From the NCBI GenBank assembly GCA_001767525.1, contig MELF01000045.1, positions 105,277 to 169,276 of the forward strand: a stretch of 64,000 nt of DNA, written 5' to 3'. The notes beneath the pieces are model-generated. The model was not told the DNA's origin and searched no databases. It saw only the letters and a program-made list of their open reading frames with translations. Origin of the DNA: Acidobacteria bacterium RIFCSPLOWO2_12_FULL_68_19 (lineage in GTDB: Bacteria; Acidobacteriota; Vicinamibacteria; Vicinamibacterales; UBA2999). Numbering within the stretch: the first letter of the stretch is position 1; each line of letters opens with the position of its first letter. Made by a program: the position numbers and the translations under genes. This document shows, one piece after another, positions 26,640 to 37,700 of this stretch.

Positions 26640-29600
26640 ATGAATGCTCCGACTGAGTTCGAGCCCGAGTTCGAGGCTCTGACCGGCCACCGGGCGCTTT
26701 GCTGGCAGATTCGTCTCTACGGCGAAATCGTAGAGGGAAGAATCCCGCCCGTTGCTGACTTACCTACCGGCCTCGGCAAGACCTCCGTCATCCCAATCTG
26801 GCTGATCGCTTTGGCGCACTCTTCGCGAGTAGACGGCGCCCGTGCACGGGTGCCGAGGCGCCTCGTCTACGTCGTGAACCGCCGAACCGTCGTCGACCAG
26901 GCTACAGACGTTGTCGAGCAGATGCGCGAACGGCTCAATACGCCAAGTGACGATCGTTGGCGCAAATCGGCGGAGGACCTGAAAGACATCGTCAATCGCT
27001 TGCGGGCGTTTTCGCTGAGCAGCGAGAACGAACCGCTCGGAGTCAGCACGCTCCGCGGCGAGCGTGCGGACAACGAGGAGTGGAAGACTGATCCGGCCCG
27101 TCCGGCGATCATCATTGGCACGATCGATATGGTCGGGAGCAAGCTGCTGTTCAGCGGCTACGGGGATAGGCGCTACTCGCGTGCTCACCACGCGGGGTTG
27201 ATCGGTCAAGACGTGCTGATCGTTCATGATGAAGCGCACCTTACTCCGGCCTTCTCGAGGCTTCTTTGGAGGGTGGAGCGACACCAGCGGGAATCTGGCG
27301 AGAGTCGTGCCGTGTACGTCCTGGAGCTGTCGGCCACGAGGCGGGCGGCGGACGATGACGATCGGGTCCGCACGGTACGCCTGCGGCCTCGCTACTCTCA
27401 GGAAGCCGAAGAGGGCCGTCCGTTTCTACTACTGCCGGACGATGAGCAGGACAAGTTTGTCCGCGAACGGCTCGACGCCGTAAAGCGGCTGCATCTGCAG
27501 CCGTTGTCGGGCGAGCAGCTCCGGGAGGCCACGCGACCGCCCGAGGGCAAGACCAAGGCGCCAACGTTGGAAGAGACGCTGGCCAGTGTGGCGTTGCGCC
27601 ACGGCGGCGCCATGGCGCGCGTGCTGGTGTATGTCGGCTCACCGGAGCATGCCCAGGGCGTGACCGCCGCGTTGCGGAAGAAGCTGGCCGATCCCGGTGG
27701 CGAACGCGTCGCTCTGTTGACCGGCACCATCCGCGGTCACGAGCGGGATCGCTTGGTTAAACAAGACGTCTTTCGCGCGCTCCTGCATCGCGAAGCCCCT
27801 CTGGAGCGAACCCTCTATCTAGTCAGCACCTCAGCCGGTGAGGTCGGGATCGATCTCGATGCGGACCACATGGTCTGCGACCTCACAACGCTTGACTCGC
27901 TTATCCAGCGCCTGGGTCGCGTCAACCGGAGCAGTGGTCCAAGCCGGGAAGCACGCGTGGATGTTGTGTGGGAGAACGAGAACTCAGAGGCGAAGGAGAA
28001 GGTTTCCCCAACGAACGAGGCGAGAGCGGCGACCCTCCGGATTCTGAAACGGTGGGTCGGCGACTCGGCGGACGGTGTGCTCGTTGGTCCGCGCCGTTTG
28101 CGGGAACTGCTCGATTACGTGCCTGCCGAAGAGCGCGAGGCCGCATTCGCTCCCAAAGGAACGATCGCGCCGCTCACCGACATCCTGCTCGACAACTGGT
28201 CCCTGACGAGCTTCGACGAGATGCCCGGTCGTCCCGAGGTAGCCGCGTACCTCCACGGGCTGACCACTGATCCTCCGGAGACATATGTCGCTTGGCGAAG
28301 AGAACTGCGCTTGCTCGAGCGTCTGGAGCCATCCTCTGAGGGATTGTCAGAGGGCGCGTACCGGAAAGCCAGGGCGGACTTCGAGGGGACGTTGCGTGAT
28401 TGGTTCGCTGCCTGCCGCATCGAGGCCCGAGAGCGACTGCGCGACACCACGGGTCGCGTGCGAAAGAAGCTCGGTGCGCTTCTAGAGGCGCATCGCAAGC
28501 GCGCCACGCCCACGTTCGATTTCCCGGTCGTTCTGCTGGACGAACGCGGCCGAGCATCATGGTCAACGCTCTCGGCGATCGTCAAGAAGCCGGAGAACAA
28601 CCAGACGGATGTGCTGTGGTATCGCACGGTGGTCCTTCCAGTTGAGATCGGCGGACTGAACCTGGACGGGGCGCTCGACGCGCAGTTCGTCAATCCCGCG
28701 GACGAGATCGACGTCGCCGATACTGGACTCCGGGAGCGTTGGCTGCACTCTTCGAGCGCGGCAGAACGCTACACGCGGCTCGCGACAGGCGAAACGGCTG
28801 AGAAGCTTCCCTCAGGGTTCCGTGAAAAAGAACGCATCACGTTGACTGAGCCGTCGGAGAGCGAGGAAGACGACGCCGACGTACTCGAATTGATGCTTCT
28901 GACGACGCCCGCGGAAGCTGCAATCGAGAACCCGGAAACAGCAAGGTTCCGACAAACACTATCGAGCCACACCCAAGAGATTCTCCAAGAGATCGACCGC
29001 ATCGCAAGGGCGCTGAACCTCGACCCCGACTTGCACGGAGCCCTTGTACATGCGGCTCAACGCCACGATCGAGGCAAGGACCGACCGTGTTGGCAGTACT
29101 ACGCATGGAACGAAGACGGAAGCGAACCAGTCGCGAAGTCGACACGCTATCGTGACCCACGCCGCGCGCTCAGCGGCTATCGCCACGAGTTCGGCTCGCT
29201 GGTGGAGGCGATGGCGGCCAGTGACTTCGTCGATCACCCGGAACGCGACCTCATCCTGCACCTCATCGCCGCGCACCACGGCTGGGCGCGGCCGCACTTC
29301 GAACCGCGCGCGTACGACCGCGAAGGGCCGCTTGACAGCCACACGAGCCAGCGACAGCCGCCGACGACGGCCGAGAGCCAACGAGTGGCCGTCGAGATGC
29401 TTCAACGTTTCGGCCGCCTCCAGCAGCGCTTTGGGCGCTGGGGCCTGGCATCGTTGGAGTCGTTGTTGCGGTGCGCAGATATCGCGGCCTCGAGACGGGT
29501 AGCAGAGTCTACGGAGGGAAGGGAAACAACCGAGACGTCCGGTCTCGGGAACCCTGAACCCGCTCGCGACCAAGCATATGGCGCCACAGTCCTGTCGACA

Positions 29601-30428
29601 GACACCTCCTCCCCCCCCGACGCACGACCTGTGATTTGTGCGGGCGGCGTGGAGGAACCGAGTTTCGGCATCGAAGTTGACGTCACAAATCCTGGGCAAT
29701 TCTTCGCGTGCTGCGGCTTACTGGAACTGGCACACAGGCTGTGGCCCGGTGCCCAAGGCTGGTTCGGTAATGGTCGCTTCTTCGTCGCTGCGCCATTCCG
29801 CCGGGATGCCTCGCCTCTCGATCTGCTGAGCCCCTTGCTCGATTGCAGCGTCGAAGTCGCAAAGGGGACACAGGACGAGAAGACGGCACCCTTGGAACTT
29901 GGTTCACCGATTCTCCTGCACCTCGACTGGTGGCTTGACGGTAACGGGAAGCCAACTCCCTTCAAGACCTGGGCGGCAAATGCGACGTCGAGGCAGATGT
30001 TCTGCAAGTGGCGCGACCCATTGAAGGAGAGTTTACGTGCGGTGGCGGGTGACTTCTTGGCGCTGCTTCAACTGGGCACGCGCCTTCAGGGCTCCTACGG
30101 CTTCGATAGTCACCTCGGTTGGGATGCATTGCGCGTTGGTTTCTCTTTGAACGAGCATGTCGGACTCAAGGATCTCCCAACGCGGCCAGTGATTGAACTT
30201 GTCGGGGCGATTGGATTGCAGCGATTCCTCCCCAGGCTCGACAGAAAGCAGTATGAAGTGCGCTACAGCCCATGGGGTCATCCGCTGTCGGCACCCGTAG
30301 CCCGCGTCGCGTCGATAGGATTGGTTCAAACCAACGGCAGTCGAACGTTGCGGACGAGATTCGTTTCGCGAGGCTCGTTCAAGGGCCTTGATGCTGCCTC
30401 GACGTTCCAGGGGGAGTTCGATGAGTGA
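26640..30428 (+). CDS. cas3: Cas3 helicase-HD nuclease fused to Csb3 (type I-G)
   Basis: A 1262-residue open frame. Residues 1-750 are a DExH helicase: Walker A PTGLGKTS (42-49), DEAH (197-200), and the LIQRLGRVNR motif VI. Around residues 780-960 is an HD nuclease (SSHTQEI, RHDRGKD with His809-Asp810, AAHHGWARPH), in the helicase-first order typical of type I-G/I-U. Residues about 1000-1262 match Csb3 (NPGQFFACCGLLELAHRLW), normally a separate protein. The join falls in a Ser/Thr/Pro linker encoded by an 8-C tract at 29611-29618. With 7 C, Cas3 would end after 997 residues at a TGA overlapping a GTG start for a 265-residue Csb3. Whether this is a true fusion, a phase-variable site or an assembly indel cannot be told here. 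Confidence 0.88.
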   Translation: MNAPTEFEPEFEALTGHRALCWQIRLYGEIVEGRIPPVADLPTGLGKTSVIPIWLIALAHSSRVDGARARVPRRLVYVVNRRTVVDQATDVVEQMRERLNTPSDDRWRKSAEDLKDIVNRLRAFSLSSENEPLGVSTLRGERADNEEWKTDPARPAIIIGTIDMVGSKLLFSGYGDRRYSRAHHAGLIGQDVLIVHDEAHLTPAFSRLLWRVERHQRESGESRAVYVLELSATRRAADDDDRVRTVRLRPRYSQEAEEGRPFLLLPDDEQDKFVRERLDAVKRLHLQPLSGEQLREATRPPEGKTKAPTLEETLASVALRHGGAMARVLVYVGSPEHAQGVTAALRKKLADPGGERVALLTGTIRGHERDRLVKQDVFRALLHREAPLERTLYLVSTSAGEVGIDLDADHMVCDLTTLDSLIQRLGRVNRSSGPSREARVDVVWENENSEAKEKVSPTNEARAATLRILKRWVGDSADGVLVGPRRLRELLDYVPAEEREAAFAPKGTIAPLTDILLDNWSLTSFDEMPGRPEVAAYLHGLTTDPPETYVAWRRELRLLERLEPSSEGLSEGAYRKARADFEGTLRDWFAACRIEARERLRDTTGRVRKKLGALLEAHRKRATPTFDFPVVLLDERGRASWSTLSAIVKKPENNQTDVLWYRTVVLPVEIGGLNLDGALDAQFVNPADEIDVADTGLRERWLHSSSAAERYTRLATGETAEKLPSGFREKERITLTEPSESEEDDADVLELMLLTTPAEAAIENPETARFRQTLSSHTQEILQEIDRIARALNLDPDLHGALVHAAQRHDRGKDRPCWQYYAWNEDGSEPVAKSTRYRDPRRALSGYRHEFGSLVEAMAASDFVDHPERDLILHLIAAHHGWARPHFEPRAYDREGPLDSHTSQRQPPTTAESQRVAVEMLQRFGRLQQRFGRWGLASLESLLRCADIAASRRVAESTEGRETTETSGLGNPEPARDQAYGATVLSTDTSSPPDARPVICAGGVEEPSFGIEVDVTNPGQFFACCGLLELAHRLWPGAQGWFGNGRFFVAAPFRRDASPLDLLSPLLDCSVEVAKGTQDEKTAPLELGSPILLHLDWWLDGNGKPTPFKTWAANATSRQMFCKWRDPLKESLRAVAGDFLALLQLGTRLQGSYGFDSHLGWDALRVGFSLNEHVGLKDLPTRPVIELVGAIGLQRFLPRLDRKQYEVRYSPWGHPLSAPVARVASIGLVQTNGSRTLRTRFVSRGSFKGLDAASTFQGEFDE
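29611..29618. other. 8-C homopolymer at the cas3/csb3 junction
   Basis: Eight consecutive C residues follow CCTCCT inside the linker. Removing one C changes the frame to read ...THDL and then TGA at 29632-29634, overlapping GTG at 29631-29633, which opens the Csb3 part. This is the same stop-start overlap style used by neighbouring genes. Confidence 0.9.
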
Positions 30429-31641
30429 GATTGCAACGAAATTCGACAGTTGGCTGGAAGACGGCAGTGATATCGCCGCTCTGGTGATGCGTCAGTGGCT
30501 CCTGCCGATCGAGGGCAAGGAAGGCGTTATCTTTCCACCGACATACGCCAAGCCCGAGCGAATGCGAGACGAGGACTGGACCGGGTACAACATCGATCGT
30601 TTCGAAGACGGCACAAACGTCTGCCAGATCGACAGCGTTGGGTCCCAGGCCAACCGAATGGAGCCGATCTTCAAGCGCAAGAAGTACAGGCACCTTGTAC
30701 CGCAGATCGTCATCGTGGCTCGCGAAAACGGGCAAACACGGGAAGTCCATCTTCTGGACGCTGGCCACCGTGCGGCAGATGCGATCGTGCGGTTTTCGAC
30801 GATTGGGCCGCAGCTATTCGAGGCATTCCTGGCATTCCAGCGGACAGGGAATGCAGAAAGGCTTGCGCGCATCGCGCCAACCTCGCTCGTCTTCGGATCG
30901 TGGGATTCCAGAGCGACTCAAGCCAAGTTGCCGCGGATCGTGCGGTCGGTGATCCGTGCTTTCAACGTGCAAGCGATGCATCGCTCAGCACAGTACAGCA
31001 CCATTGCTGGTGAGATCCTTGAGGGTTCTGATGCCGAGGTGACCGTGAAAGGACCGAAGGCAGAACTCGGTCTGGCACACGTGCCTGCGGTCATGACTCA
31101 CGGCGGCGTCTGGATCAAGAATGGCAGTGAGATTCGGCGCGACGCTGTCTTAAGCCTGGTCCCGTTGCGTGCACTGTGCGCGGAATCCGGGCAAGGTGAG
31201 GACACCCTGGTGCTCAGACGTTACATCCTGGGTGTGGCGCTCGTTGCATTCTCGGCACCGCCTGAGACGTGTCTTCGCGAAGGCTGCCAAGTCGTTCCCG
31301 ACAAGTCGCGCCCAGCCGAGTTGAGTCTGGTCAATCATGACGGCGGTCGCGACGAGTGGGTGCTCACTGATCGGGACGCTCTAGCCTTCGCCGATGAAGC
31401 CGCGAAAGCGTTTCACGTTCAGCAGCCATCGCAGTCCGCGGAATGGGACGGAGAACTAGCGCGGACCGTCTTGGGCCTAAATGAGCAACAGCGAAAGGAG
31501 TTGCTCAGAGGAGGGCCAGTGACCCGTGCGAGGCTCGAGCAAGTGTCCTCGCAGCAGAGTACGCGTGGGCGAGGGACGACGGGCAGGAACGCGGCCCGCG
31601 CCGAAGGGCAAGGTGCGGTGGCGGAGCCGGACACGCGTTGA
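30421..31641 (+). CDS. csb1: Csb1 (Cas7-like backbone, type I-G)
   Basis: The backbone subunit of the I-G Cascade, 406 residues, of the GSU0053/Csb1 family. Recognisable segments are FPPTYA near the start, DSVGSQANRMEPIF, DAGHRAADAIVRFS, LVFGSWDSR and RSAQYS. The ATG at 30421 overlaps the preceding stop by 8 nt and starts the conserved N-terminus; an upstream in-frame ATG lies inside Csb3. The C-terminal 30 residues are a low-complexity Arg/Gly tail. The gene uses more A/T at third positions than the hydrogenase genes, in keeping with transfer. Confidence 0.92.
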   Translation: MSEIATKFDSWLEDGSDIAALVMRQWLLPIEGKEGVIFPPTYAKPERMRDEDWTGYNIDRFEDGTNVCQIDSVGSQANRMEPIFKRKKYRHLVPQIVIVARENGQTREVHLLDAGHRAADAIVRFSTIGPQLFEAFLAFQRTGNAERLARIAPTSLVFGSWDSRATQAKLPRIVRSVIRAFNVQAMHRSAQYSTIAGEILEGSDAEVTVKGPKAELGLAHVPAVMTHGGVWIKNGSEIRRDAVLSLVPLRALCAESGQGEDTLVLRRYILGVALVAFSAPPETCLREGCQVVPDKSRPAELSLVNHDGGRDEWVLTDRDALAFADEAAKAFHVQQPSQSAEWDGELARTVLGLNEQQRKELLRGGPVTRARLEQVSSQQSTRGRGTTGRNAARAEGQGAVAEPDTR

Positions 31642-33203
31642 TGAGCGCCCACCTCTGCATCTCCGTGACGCTTCTCGATCGGCTTTTTCACGGTCAGGGA
31701 GAGGACGAGCCGGAGTGGCCACCGTCGCCAATGCGACTCTTTCAGGCGCTCGTCGCTGGGTCTCGCGCCGGGTGGCGCAATGGTCGGTGGACCGGCAAAG
31801 ACGGCAATGAGTTGCGAACGGCATTCGAATGGCTGGAGCGCCGAGAGGCGCCAGAGATCGTAGCGCCAGAGGCGCACAAAGGCGCAGCCTACAAATTCTT
31901 CGTGCCGAACAACGACAGCGACCAGAAGTTCGAACGGCAGGATCGCCTGACTGAAAAGATCGTTCGACCGCACCGACTTGCGACCAGCGTGAACGACGCC
32001 GATCGGCCCCACATCATTCACTACGTGTGGTCTATCGGCGACTTGGAGTGGTCATCTTCGAGGCCGCATGCGGAAGTGCTCTGCCGGGAAGCCCGTCATC
32101 TGATGGCGCTTGGCTGGGGCATCGACCAGGCTGCGGGTGACGGACAAATTCTGACCACCGCCGAAGCCGCAGCACTTCGAGGGATTCGCTGGCGTGCCTG
32201 GCGCGGCGCCTCTCCGGGCCGGCAGTGCCTGCGGATTCCCCAGGCGGGGTCGCTGAGCGACTGTGAGTTGGTACACACCTCGTTCGTCAACCGTGTTCGC
32301 ATTGCACGGCGTGGGAGGGCCGCCGTACTCGAATACGCGCCTGCGGAGAAGCTGCGCTGTTTCGACACGGTTGTCTACTTGCCCGTTGGTCAAATGCCGC
32401 CGCGGCACTACGCTGCCTTCGACCTGCCCGACGGCGTTGCATTTCGACAGGAGTCCACGATCGAGGTAGCGGCGATGCTGCGCTCGCTCGTCTGCGACGA
32501 CGTGAGATACCGCAACCGACAGGACTTCAGCGAGCAGTTCCCAGGCGTAGAGCTTGACGTATATCTCGCCGGACACATCGCCAACACTCCCGACCGTCGG
32601 AAGAACCAGCCGCAGCGGTTCTCGTACCTGCCGCTCCCGACGATCGGCCATCAGCACGCTGATGGGATGATCCGCCGCGTACTGATCGCCGAGCCGTCTG
32701 GCGGCCACGGAGCGTACGCGCGCTGGGCAGACCAGCGCCTCCGCGGCCAGTCCCTGCGCGACAAGGACGGCCATGAGCGGGGCGTGCTGCTCGACGCCTG
32801 GAGACGGAGTTCGTCAGGAATGCTCGATCGATACGTAGCCCAAAGCACGAGCTGGGCGACTGTCACGCCCGTGATCCTGCCCGGGTTCGATGATTTCAGG
32901 GGTGTTCGCACCAACAAGCGAGAACAGCCGACGAAAGCTGAGCGGCTGTTTCTCAAGGCGGTCGAACAGTCGGGCGTGCCGCTCGAGGCGGTCAGGGATG
33001 TCACACTGCGCAGGGCTCCCTTCTGGCCAGGGTCACAGCATCCTGCCTCGTACCGGCGTCCGGACTATCTCGACTCGCCGAAGAACCGCCGGTTTTCCGC
33101 CTGGCATGCGTGTCTGACGTTCCGCGAGCCGGTGACTGGACCGCTCGCCATCGGCGCCGGGCGTCATATTGGTCTCGGCCTCTTTGCGATCTGGGAAAGG
33201 TGA
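31641..33203 (+). CDS. csb2: Csb2 (Cas5-Cas6 fusion, type I-G)
   Basis: A 520-residue protein of the GSU0054/Csb2 family, which combines a Cas5-like part and a Cas6-like crRNA endonuclease. The N-terminus (LCISVTLLDRLFHG, then WPPSPMRLFQALVAGS) is characteristic; the C-terminal half contains RAPFWPGSQHP and ends in a Gly-rich GAGRHIGLGLF loop typical of RAMP/Cas6 domains. It would process the array transcript and cap the Cascade. The start shares one base with the csb1 stop. Confidence 0.9.
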   Translation: MSAHLCISVTLLDRLFHGQGEDEPEWPPSPMRLFQALVAGSRAGWRNGRWTGKDGNELRTAFEWLERREAPEIVAPEAHKGAAYKFFVPNNDSDQKFERQDRLTEKIVRPHRLATSVNDADRPHIIHYVWSIGDLEWSSSRPHAEVLCREARHLMALGWGIDQAAGDGQILTTAEAAALRGIRWRAWRGASPGRQCLRIPQAGSLSDCELVHTSFVNRVRIARRGRAAVLEYAPAEKLRCFDTVVYLPVGQMPPRHYAAFDLPDGVAFRQESTIEVAAMLRSLVCDDVRYRNRQDFSEQFPGVELDVYLAGHIANTPDRRKNQPQRFSYLPLPTIGHQHADGMIRRVLIAEPSGGHGAYARWADQRLRGQSLRDKDGHERGVLLDAWRRSSSGMLDRYVAQSTSWATVTPVILPGFDDFRGVRTNKREQPTKAERLFLKAVEQSGVPLEAVRDVTLRRAPFWPGSQHPASYRRPDYLDSPKNRRFSAWHACLTFREPVTGPLAIGAGRHIGLGLFAIWER

Positions 33204-33206
33204 AGT

Positions 33207-33557
33207 GTGACAAGTCAGCCCGTTGCGACCGAATCACTGCTCGATCTGGATCCCGTCCTCGCGGAGATCGTCCGCCGCCTCGCGGCCGCCTACCAGCCGG
33301 AGCGCATCTACCTCTTCGGCTCGAAGGCCCGCGGCGACGCCGGCCCCGACAGCGACTACGACCTCCTCGTCGTCGCGCCCGACGATGCGCCGCCGGAACG
33401 GCGCGACAGCAAGCTCGCCTACGAGGTGCTGTGGGGTGTCGAAGCCTCGGTCGATGCCGTCGTGTGTCGCAGCAGCTGGTTTCACGCCCGCACGCATCTG
33501 AAGGCGTCGTTGCCTGGAACCGTTCTGCGGGAAGGCAGGTTGCTCCATGCCGCATGA
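33207..33557 (+). CDS. MNT-type nucleotidyltransferase (antitoxin-like)
   Basis: A 116-residue minimal nucleotidyltransferase. The GSx10DxD motif is complete: GSKARGDAGPDSDYD, with a further acidic residue in EASVDAVV. MNT proteins of HEPN/MNT pairs act as antitoxins that AMPylate or block the HEPN partner. The gene starts 3 nt after the csb2 stop and overlaps the HEPN gene by 11 nt, so the pair sits inside the cas operon. Confidence 0.9.
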   Translation: MTSQPVATESLLDLDPVLAEIVRRLAAAYQPERIYLFGSKARGDAGPDSDYDLLVVAPDDAPPERRDSKLAYEVLWGVEASVDAVVCRSSWFHARTHLKASLPGTVLREGRLLHAA

Positions 33558-33963
33558 CCCGGCGCGCGTGGAAGACACGCGGGTCTGGATGACGAAGGCC
33601 AGAACCGATCTTCACGCCGGGGCGCACGGATTGACCGCGGTCCCACCGATTACGACCGACGCCGTCTTTCACGCGCAACAAGCGGCCGAGAAGGCGCTCA
33701 AAGGATTCCTCGCGTGGCACGACGAGCCCTTCGGCAAGACTCACGATCTGGCTGCCCTGTGCCGGTTGTGTACGCCCATCGAGCAAAGCTTCGAGTCGAT
33801 GGGGCGGCGCGCCGCACGCCTGACCGACTACGCCTGGAAGTACCGCTATCCGGGAGAGCCTGGTGAGCCCTCCCGCGAGGAAGCGGAGTCAGCGCTCGCG
33901 CTGGCTCGCGAGGTCTACGACGCCGTGCTCGAACTCCTCCCGAGTGAGGCGCGGCCAGCGTGA
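33547..33963 (+). CDS. HEPN-domain protein (toxin-like)
   Basis: A 138-residue helical HEPN protein with the family core FHAQQAAEKALKGFLAWH, KTHDLAALC and DYAWKYRYPGEP. No clear Rx4-6H RNase motif is visible, so it may belong to the class without classical HEPN RNase residues. It is translationally coupled to the MNT gene and is the likely partner. The pair may act as an abortive or addiction module within the CRISPR locus (inference). Confidence 0.88.
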   Translation: MPHDPARVEDTRVWMTKARTDLHAGAHGLTAVPPITTDAVFHAQQAAEKALKGFLAWHDEPFGKTHDLAALCRLCTPIEQSFESMGRRAARLTDYAWKYRYPGEPGEPSREEAESALALAREVYDAVLELLPSEARPA

Positions 33964-34119: not shown

Positions 34120-34512
34120 GTGCGCAACACCTACCTCGTCTGCTACGACATCTCGGACGACACCCGCCTGCGCCGCGTTCACAAGACGATGACCGGCTTC
34201 GGCGACCGGCTGCAGTACTCGGTCTTCGAGTGCAAGTTCGCCCAGGCCGACCTGGCCCGCTGCAGGCACGCCCTCGAGAAGCTGATCCACCACCGCGAGG
34301 ACCAGGTTCTCTTCGTCGACCTCGGCCCCGTCGAGGGTCGCGGCGAGCGCGTCATCACGGCCATCGGCCGCGCCTACTCCACACTCGACGCCCCCTGCAT
34401 CATCGTCGACGGCGAGGACGATCGCGGCGAGGTGGCCGGCACGAAGAGGAGGGTTGACGCGATCCAGCGCGCCAGGATGGAACGTGCCGAGCGCGCCGAG
34501 GAGGAGGAATGA
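34120..34512 (+). CDS. cas2: Cas2 with extended C-terminus
   Basis: The adaptation subunit that forms the integrase core with Cas1. The N-terminus MRNTYLVCYDISDDTRLRRV has the conserved Asp after YD, and the ferredoxin-like fold ends near DLGPVEGR. At 130 residues it is longer than the usual 85-100; the extra tail after CIIVDGED is highly charged (RARMERAERAEEEE). GTG start, 4-nt overlap with cas4-cas1. Confidence 0.95.
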   Translation: MRNTYLVCYDISDDTRLRRVHKTMTGFGDRLQYSVFECKFAQADLARCRHALEKLIHHREDQVLFVDLGPVEGRGERVITAIGRAYSTLDAPCIIVDGEDDRGEVAGTKRRVDAIQRARMERAERAEEEE

Positions 34513-36332
34513 GCACCGACCCGCTGCCGTCTCCGCTGGCGTTCCCGTCGCGGCCAATCCCCGTGAAGGCGGGCTTGCGGCGGCCGGTGGAGCTGCCGCC
34601 GTACCTCCCCGCTCGCATGCTCAACGAGCTCGTCTACTGCCCGCGGCTGTTCTTCTACGAGTGGGTGGAGGGCGTCTTCGCGCACAGCGCCGACACGGTG
34701 GAAGGCGCGCTGCGGCACGACACGCTCGGCGAGAAGGCCGGCGCGCTGCCGCCCGCGGCCGACGCGGCAGACCAGCGAATCCACTCCCGATCGGTCTCGC
34801 TGTCGAGCGACCGCTACGGTCTGACGGCCGTGATCGACCTGGTGGAAGGCGAGGGCGGCCGCGTCTCGCCGGTGGACTACAAGCACGGCGCGCCGCGCGA
34901 GCAGGATGGCGCGCTCGAGGCGTGGCCGACCGATCGCGTGCAGGTGTGCGTGCAGGCGCTCATCCTGCGTGAGCACGGCTACACGTGCGACGAGGCGGTC
35001 GTCTACTACAACCAGACGAAGCAGCGCGTGCGCGTGCCGATTGACGACGAGCTCGTCGCATCCACCCTCGCCGGCGTCGAAGCGGCTCGTCGCATCGCCG
35101 GGTCCGGCCGGATCCCGGAGCCGCTGGTTGACAGCCCGAAGTGCCCGCGTTGCTCGCTCGTCGGCATCTGCCTTCCCGACGAGACACGGGCGCTGCTCCA
35201 CGGCGGCCTGCGACCGGAGGAGGCAGTCGACGCCGAACAGTTGTCGCTGTTCGAGGAGGCGCCGGTTGGTCCGCCCGCCGGGTCGCGGTCGGTCGACGTC
35301 CGTCGCCTGATTCCGGCGGGTGACGACCTGCGTCCGCTCTACGTCACCGGGTACGGGTTCAGCATCGGCCGGTCGGGTGGCGTCCTGCAGATCAAGGAAA
35401 AGGGGAGCCTCGTGCAGGAGGCACGGCTCAACGACGTGTCGCAGGTGAACGTCTTCGGGAGCGCGTCGGTGACGACCGGCGCCGTGCAGGCGCTGGCTGA
35501 GCTCGAGCGCCCGATCGCGTACTTCACCACGGGCGGCTGGTTCTACGGGATGACGACGGCACTCGGGCTGAAGAACGTCTTCCTGCGACGCGAGCAGTTT
35601 CGCCGCGCCGATGACGAAGCGTTCTGCCTGCGGATCGCCCGCCGGATCGTGGCAACGAAGATCCGGAACCAGCGCACGATGCTGCAGCGCAATCACCTGG
35701 AGCCGCCGGCGCGGGCGCTCGACGCGTTGCGGCGGCTGGCGCGCCAGGCGGCGGAGGCCGGCGCGCTCGACTCGCTGCTCGGCATCGAGGGGACCGCCGC
35801 GCACTACTATTTCGGCCACTTCCGCGGGATGTTGAAGGTGGACGACGAGCAGGAGCGCCCGGCGTTCGACTTCACGCGGCGCAACCGGCGTCCGCCGCGC
35901 GACCCGGTGAACGCGCTGCTGTCGCTCGGCTACAGTCTGCTGGTGCGCGACCTGACGTTCGTCTGTCATACGATCGGATTCGATCCGTTCATCGGGTTCT
36001 TTCACCAGCCGCGGTTCGGGCGGCCGGCGCTGCCGCTCGATCTGATGGAAGGATTCCGGCCGCTCGTCGTCGACTCGGCGGTGCTGTCGGCGGTCAACAC
36101 GCGCATGGTGGCGCCGGACGACTTCCGGCAGGTCGGTGAATCGGTGATGCTCACGCCGCGGGGGCGGAAGCGGTTCCTGCAGGCCTACGAGCAGCGGATG
36201 GACGCTCAGGCGACGCACCCGCTCTTCGGCTATCGTGTGAGCTACCGGCGGGTGCTGGAGATCCAGGCGCGGCTGTTGGCCCGCGTGGTGACGGGGGAGC
36301 TGCCCGAGTATCCTGGGTTCGAGACGCGGTGA
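34509..36332 (+). CDS. cas4-cas1: Cas4-Cas1 fusion
   Basis: A 607-residue adaptation protein. Residues about 30-235 form Cas4, with cluster ligands Cys44 (LVYCPRLFFYEW) and Cys212, Cys215, Cys221 (CPRCSLVGIC), and a RecB-type VDYKHG motif. Residues about 270-607 form Cas1, with active-site Glu427 (GIEGTA), His499 (FFHQPR) and Asp511/Glu514 (DLMEGF). Such fusions are a mark of type I-G and select PAM-bearing spacers. It is followed directly by the leader and array. Confidence 0.97.
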   Translation: MSTDPLPSPLAFPSRPIPVKAGLRRPVELPPYLPARMLNELVYCPRLFFYEWVEGVFAHSADTVEGALRHDTLGEKAGALPPAADAADQRIHSRSVSLSSDRYGLTAVIDLVEGEGGRVSPVDYKHGAPREQDGALEAWPTDRVQVCVQALILREHGYTCDEAVVYYNQTKQRVRVPIDDELVASTLAGVEAARRIAGSGRIPEPLVDSPKCPRCSLVGICLPDETRALLHGGLRPEEAVDAEQLSLFEEAPVGPPAGSRSVDVRRLIPAGDDLRPLYVTGYGFSIGRSGGVLQIKEKGSLVQEARLNDVSQVNVFGSASVTTGAVQALAELERPIAYFTTGGWFYGMTTALGLKNVFLRREQFRRADDEAFCLRIARRIVATKIRNQRTMLQRNHLEPPARALDALRRLARQAAEAGALDSLLGIEGTAAHYYFGHFRGMLKVDDEQERPAFDFTRRNRRPPRDPVNALLSLGYSLLVRDLTFVCHTIGFDPFIGFFHQPRFGRPALPLDLMEGFRPLVVDSAVLSAVNTRMVAPDDFRQVGESVMLTPRGRKRFLQAYEQRMDAQATHPLFGYRVSYRRVLEIQARLLARVVTGELPEYPGFETR

Positions 36333-36517: not shown

Positions 36518-37700
36518 GATTCCGCGGCGAATGAGCCGCGGCCTCATTGAAGCGAGTCCTCGGCGGGTTCGCAGAGCAAGTGCGTTTTCGATTCCGCGGC
36601 GAATGAGCCGCGGCCTCATTGAAGCACCGTGATGGTCGTCTGGTCATCGGCTCCCGTCAGCGATTCCGCGGCGAATGAGCCGCGGCCTCATTGAAGCAAT
36701 TGCGCCCCGTGAATCGTCAGCACGTCCTGCAGCGATTCCGCGGCGAATGAGCCGCGGCCTCATTGAAGCGCTGTAGGCGCCATGCCGCGTCCGCCCGCCT
36801 CGGATCGATTCCGCGGCGAATGAGCCGCGGCCTCATTGAAGCTCGGGCCACTGGTAGGACTCCTTCCCCCAGGTGCCGATTCCGCGGCGAATGAGCCGCG
36901 GCCTCATTGAAGCGCGGATCCCGCGTTCCACGCCGGCGAGCTGCCGCCGATTCCGCGGCGAATGAGCCGCGGCCTCATTGAAGCCCGGTCACGATTCATT
37001 GGGTCAGTGAATCCACGCCGACGATTCCGCGGCGAATGAGCCGCGGCCTCATTGAAGCATCCCGATCCAGGCCAGCGCCTGCCCGACCTTGGCGATTCCG
37101 CGGCGAATGAGCCGCGGCCTCATTGAAGCCATGTCGATCCTCACGATACGGGTATACGTTTACGGATTCCGCGGCGAATGAGCCGCGGCCTCATTGAAGC
37201 ACCCGGCCGGTTGAGGAGTTCACCGGGCGTGTGGCGATTCCGCGGCGAATGAGCCGCGGCCTCATTGAAGCGTGCAGACCCCGATGTTGGTCGCGGAAGA
37301 TGCCGCCGATTCCGCGGCGAATGAGCCGCGGCCTCATTGAAGCTCGTCATGCGAGTACGTCTTCTACCTCACTGATGTTGATTCCGCGGCGAATGAGCCG
37401 CGGCCTCATTGAAGCCGCAGTTCCGCCCACGTCTCGCCAGGCAGGGTTGTGGATTCCGCGGCGAATGAGCCGCGGCCTCATTGAAGCAGCTCCTGTTTTG
37501 TCAAGGGTAATGACGCGTGTCAGATTCCGCGGCGAATGAGCCGCGGCCTCATTGAAGCGGTTTACCCCCACTCGGACCAGAAGGGGATGTGACGATTCCG
37601 CGGCGAATGAGCCGCGGCCTCATTGAAGCGCCCCCACCGTCTGCCAGTCGGCGTCTGAGTCGAGGATTCCGCGGCGAATGAGCCGCGGCCTCATTGAAGC
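36518..37700 (+). CRISPR. CRISPR array, 17 repeats and 16 spacers
   Basis: The 36-nt repeat begins GATTCCGCGGCGAATGAG and ends CCTCATTGAAGC; all 17 copies look identical. Starts are at 36518, 36590, 36662, 36734, 36807, 36878, 36949, 37023, 37094, 37165, 37236, 37308, 37380, 37452, 37523, 37594 and 37665. Spacers are 35-38 nt. The repeat holds a 7-bp stem CCGCGGC/GCCGCGG with loop GAATGA, and the 3' ATTGAAGC matches a typical crRNA 5' handle, so + strand transcription is predicted. Identical repeats with no decay at the leader-distal end suggest a maintained array. Confidence 0.98.

Follow-up and report, generated by a model that had tools for sequence, protein, structure and literature searches.

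Probable fusion of cas3 and csb3 in a type I-G CRISPR-Cas operon of an Acidobacteria bacterium

In the genome of Acidobacteria bacterium RIFCSPLOWO2_12_FULL_68_19, the Cas3 helicase-nuclease and the Cascade subunit Csb3 (Cas8g2) of a type I-G CRISPR-Cas system are read as one open frame, with a run of eight C residues between the two domains. This arrangement raises the question of whether the organism makes a single Cas3-Csb3 chain or whether the continuous frame reflects an assembly indel, a slippage-based switch or a ribosomal frameshift site. The locus was analyzed within a window of 64,000 nucleotides (the whole stretch of DNA under study) and compared with related loci in other genomes. 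Based on these comparisons, the frame is probably a real Cas3-Cas8g2 gene fusion, derived from separate, coupled genes.

The fused frame within its operon

The frame contains no internal stop and joins a complete Cas3g to Csb3 (Table 1). The Cas3g family TIGR02621 (NCBIfam) is matched along its entire profile (positions 1-854 of 854, 620 bits, cut-off 400), and the match to TIGR04106 (Cas8g2/Csb3; NCBIfam) begins at aa 1009 in the same frame (126.3 bits, cut-off 125); both domains are thus complete within one open frame, as in a natural fusion of Cas3 with a large subunit. The eight C residues lie between T29610 and G29619. In a version with seven, Cas3 would end as ...SSPPTHDL* at TGA 29632-29634 and GTG 29631 would stand in the csb3 frame. 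Reading frames and family matches bear out the original prediction on both points, namely that the C residues fall in a frame running from Cas3 to Csb3 and that one C fewer creates a Cas3 stop overlapping this GTG.

Table 1. Coordinates of the fused frame, its parts and the neighboring type I-G genes in the window
Feature	Coordinates	Strand	Basis or remark
cas3-csb3 fused frame	26640..30428	+	1262 aa, one open frame
Cas3g region (aa 6-952), helicase and HD nuclease	26655..29495	+	TIGR02621, PDLC00939
Linker (aa 953-1008), between both family matches	29496..29663	+	gap between profile matches
C8 tract	29611..29618	+	read from sequence
GTGA	29631..29634	+	start codon GTG as read in the fused frame; stop TGA once one base is lost
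Csb3 (Cas8g2) region (aa 1009 to ~1244)	29664..30371	+	TIGR04106, PDLC01375 (to aa 1244); predicted fold similar to 8b2x Cas8g
csb1 (cas7g)	30421..31641	+	PF09617, TIGR02570; start overlaps csb3 end by 8 nt
csb2 (cas5-cas6)	31638..33203	+	PF09609, TIGR02165
cas2	34120..34512	+	PF09827
cas4-cas1 fusion, type I-G form	34509..36332	+	NF049935
CRISPR array	36518..37700		at least 17 identical 36-nt repeats

The assignment to type I-G is supported by a Cas3g of the GSU0051 family, Csb1 and Csb2 (TIGR02570, 132 bits, and TIGR02165, 255 bits, both above cut-off), a Cas4-Cas1 fusion (NF049935, 745 bits, cut-off 560) and a Csb3/Cas8g2 large subunit. Since the operon continues from csb1 to cas4-cas1 and is followed by an array of identical repeats, the system looks intact. 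Like type I-G systems (formerly I-U) of the GSU0051-GSU0054 kind, it contains cas3g, csb3 (cas8g2), csb1, csb2, cas4-cas1 and cas2, with the usual effector gene order, the cas4-cas1 fusion and an intact array. It differs from them in that cas3 and csb3 form one frame instead of two overlapping genes, and in a nucleotidyltransferase/HEPN pair located between csb2 and cas2.

Gene boundaries in relatives and the origin of the join

The cas3/csb3 junction was read in 33 loci obtained from 1,783 genome searches (some genomes repeated), centered on the organism's own phylum, Gemmatimonadota and Chloroflexota, and from one genome-contig scan; Csb3 matches with no usable junction (short fragments in genomes G569 and G237, a decayed locus in G124) were excluded. 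The two genes are separate in 31 of the 33 junctions and fused in two, those of the window and of genome G238. In the separate loci csb3 lies mostly in the -1 frame and is reached via ATGA, GTGA or TGATG; in locus L080 both genes share a frame with a TGA between them, and L033 shows a run of seven C ahead of a GTGA overlap at this boundary. In L067, the sister locus (56% identity), the genes are separate, with an ATGA overlap and a strong Shine-Dalgarno. Because separate genes with such overlaps prevail, there is strong support for an ancestral state in which the two genes were coupled and csb3 occupied the -1 frame, as the original prediction had implied. The only same-genus genome examined gave no match to the locus, no Csb3 relatives were found in plasmid records and viral contigs yielded no match; additional surveys around G564 and G463 added neither fused nor closer loci. 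Two side observations concern these relatives: adjoining short cas3 and csb3 fragments at G124:C63:32883-33444 (L021, L058; frames of 161 and 77 aa) look like a decayed I-G locus, and L033 carries a second, partial copy of csb2 (C-terminal part, L033:13163-13489) between csb2 and cas4-cas1.

From a type I-G operon in which cas3 and csb3 overlapped by a few bases, the present frame would have arisen by a net +1 change located somewhere from about 29503 to 29631, most likely, as far as single places go, at the C tract but possibly at others, while loss of the ribosome-binding site of csb3 and growth of the linker would have completed the conversion to one gene. Upstream of TGA 29632, its frame meets no stop until 29500, and therefore the tract is just one among many possible join sites: any +1 shift within the interval of about 29503-29631 joins the genes in the same manner. 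Codon use at 29531-29610 best fits the Cas3 frame, and between the C tract and Csb3 it does not discriminate among frames.

The GTGA stop-start overlap, on which the original prediction leaned, carries little weight. When single bases were deleted at random from genes of this genome, 43% of the resulting frames (n=4,240) ended at ATGA or GTGA; such overlaps are frequent by chance, since an A or G in front of a TGA is enough to set a start codon in the right frame. Given this chance rate and the many equivalent shift positions, the coincidence is weak evidence for an ancestral overlap. The proximity of the alternative stop to the csb3 start sites of relatives mildly favors one.

The second fused case, in G238, is a single frame for Cas3g plus Cas8g2 at L102:3944-8005, with csb1 and csb2 coming next; its Cas8g2 match reaches 61 bits against a curated cut-off of 125, in a region common to the close separate relatives L005 and L069. 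In a tree of the C-terminal part of Cas3 plus Csb3, G238 groups with L005 and L069 and the window with L067 (100/100), and the two fusions are united in 0% of bootstrap trees. Because the tree places them apart, the two fusions had separate origins; no csb3 was present in other genomes of the order of G238 among those searched. Both cases share the domain order, the single frame, the csb1-csb2 neighbors and the lack of a good Shine-Dalgarno at a residual GTG, whereas G238, besides its independent origin, has a shorter linker and a join that lacks any homopolymer of 6 or more. The existence of a second, independent case suggests that such fusions are real. The csb1 of G238 (L102:7983-9452) has a C-terminal half containing successive SKTDE-like pentapeptide repeats.

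Alternative explanations for the eighth C

The ribosome-binding signals and the linker bear most directly on the choice between one gene and two. Among 30 separate loci, 29 have a Shine-Dalgarno of -4 kcal/mol or stronger ahead of csb3, and the window GTG 29631 (+0.4) and the residual GTG of G238 (-2.1) are the two weakest among 32, a ranking expected about once in 500 by rank alone. Two points temper this contrast: at 5 of 12 4-nt overlaps in the organism's own genome the Shine-Dalgarno is weaker than -4, and GTG 29649 is preceded by a moderate one (-5.8). With seven C, the Cas3 tail would comprise 46 aa, the longest measured, compared to 7-40 (median 14) in 28 separate relatives. As a repeat elsewhere in the genome, the linker gave chance matches only. 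A site at 29512-29518 (-10 kcal/mol, at about the position seen in relatives) that might be a fossil Shine-Dalgarno was rejected as evidence, as equally strong sites occur in 20% of random 175-nt stretches.

The behavior of homopolymers was sampled over 828 kb of this assembly. Wherever a G/C tract of 7 or more was flanked on both sides by coding sequence that could be scored, the frame was preserved (22 of 22), which gives a rule-of-three upper bound of about 13% per tract; runs of 8 or more are uncommon (six in 828 kb). Four apparent frame changes occur at 6-nt tracts, of which three look like gene boundaries (L096, L118, L120) and the fourth (L095) sits in a long gene on the opposite strand. 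Because all 22 tracts keep the frame, the assembly is not prone to indels in general, leaving a single error at the C8 tract possible. In a 428-kb sample of this genome, four G/C runs of 8 or more were counted against about 18 by a first-order self-transition estimate, as if they were avoided.

The most serious competitor of a fixed fusion treats the eighth C as an error of assembly or consensus, or as an indel that the sequenced strain alone acquired recently; the normal gene would then have seven C, and GTGA would couple cas3 to a separate csb3. This explanation is tenable but unlikely. It needs one base only, in the most indel-prone type of sequence, and agrees with the separate genes in 31 of 33 junctions, mostly in this very frame relation, with the seven C and GTGA overlap of L033 and with an alternative stop near the csb3 starts of relatives. 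It is opposed by the frame-clean tracts of this assembly, by a Cas3 tail that would be exceptionally long and by the missing Shine-Dalgarno, which a separate csb3 would be expected to have; the GTGA itself adds little, given its frequency after random deletions. Prior odds for a genuine fusion and for a one-base error are estimated as similar, with one other fusion among 32 loci on one side and, on the other, an indel probability at such a tract of no more than a few per cent. The absent Shine-Dalgarno and the long linker favor the fusion, and the position of the alternative stop favors seven C, now or recently.

A reversible C7/C8 switch, in which slippage at replication would alternate tethered Cas3-Cas8 (eight C) with separately made Cas3 and Cas8 (seven C), is improbable. 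The length of the C8 tract falls in the range of known phase-variable G/C tracts and the products would be sensible in both frames. Nevertheless, the tract is not conserved, L033 (C7) being the only locus with a run among the relatives scanned for junction runs of 6 or more; similar tracts occur inside other genes of this genome, and the seven-C form would lack a Shine-Dalgarno for csb3. A +1 ribosomal shift on the C run, giving some separate Cas3 from the eight-C gene, is very improbable: CCC-C runs can shift ribosomes +1 in principle, through proline tRNAs, but the decoding site holds no stop codon, no such site is conserved in relatives and no Shine-Dalgarno is present to restart csb3 at GTG 29631. 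Thus, of the four possibilities raised by the original prediction, the fixed fusion is the best supported, by the independent fused relative, the absent Shine-Dalgarno, the long linker and the frame-clean homopolymers elsewhere; nothing was found in favor of slippage or a programmed frameshift, and the assembly indel retains the lesser probability given above.

Possible consequences of tethering Cas3 to Csb3

A predicted model of Csb3 (mean pLDDT 88.7) resembles the Cas8g chain of a type I-G effector (8b2x; Z 11.3 over 209 residues) and, to a lesser degree, a type I-A Cascade chain (7tr6_C; Z 8.2), the following rows being near 4; Foldseek alone gave a marginal match to 8b2x (E 0.009), and a sequence search for a solved Csb3 structure found none. 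Csb3 is thus predicted to fold like Cas8g, the Cas3-binding subunit of type I-G, and was described earlier as RAMP-like, its helical tail resembling that of Cas8 (PMC3150331). In the type I-G effector studied, Cas8g links Cas3 to Cascade and Cas3 aids target binding (PMC9638904). That Cas8g is of the Csx17 kind, and a role of Csb3 in binding Cas3 is proposed by analogy.

If the fusion is genuine, its product would be a Cas3 helicase-nuclease tethered via a linker of about 50 residues to the Cascade subunit that is expected to bind it, Cas8g2, and therefore each Cascade with this subunit would carry its own nuclease in a 1:1 ratio. We infer that the eight C are truly present in the DNA of the organism, that both domains are made as one chain and that a tethered Cas3 no longer has to be recruited. 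In such a chain Cas3 and Cas8g2 would be linked covalently, like the partners in the Cas3-Cse1 fusion of type I-E; that fusion occurs naturally and, when tried in yeast, improved interference (PMC9241507). In both systems Cas3 is joined N-terminally to the Cascade large subunit, but the present case, read from sequence alone, belongs to another subtype and involves a different large-subunit family. While fusion of Cas3 to a Cascade large subunit is already documented for type I-E, no report of one in type I-G was found among the open-access papers covered, where absence is not proof. If real, such a fusion arose at least twice in type I-G, fits the report of type I-G Cas3 as a built-in subunit and not a late recruit, and would provide structural work, as well as compact DNA-shredding tools, with a Cas3-Cas8 that is naturally one chain.

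Two minor observations concern the operon as a whole. The pair between csb2 and cas2 (33207-33963) consists of an MntA-like nucleotidyltransferase and a HEPN protein and resembles a type VII toxin-antitoxin placed inside the I-G operon; neither member was matched in L033. The cas operon (26640-33200) has a G+C content of about 60-66%, compared to 68% in the sampled genome, and its closest relatives are in other phyla, as if it had been acquired horizontally.
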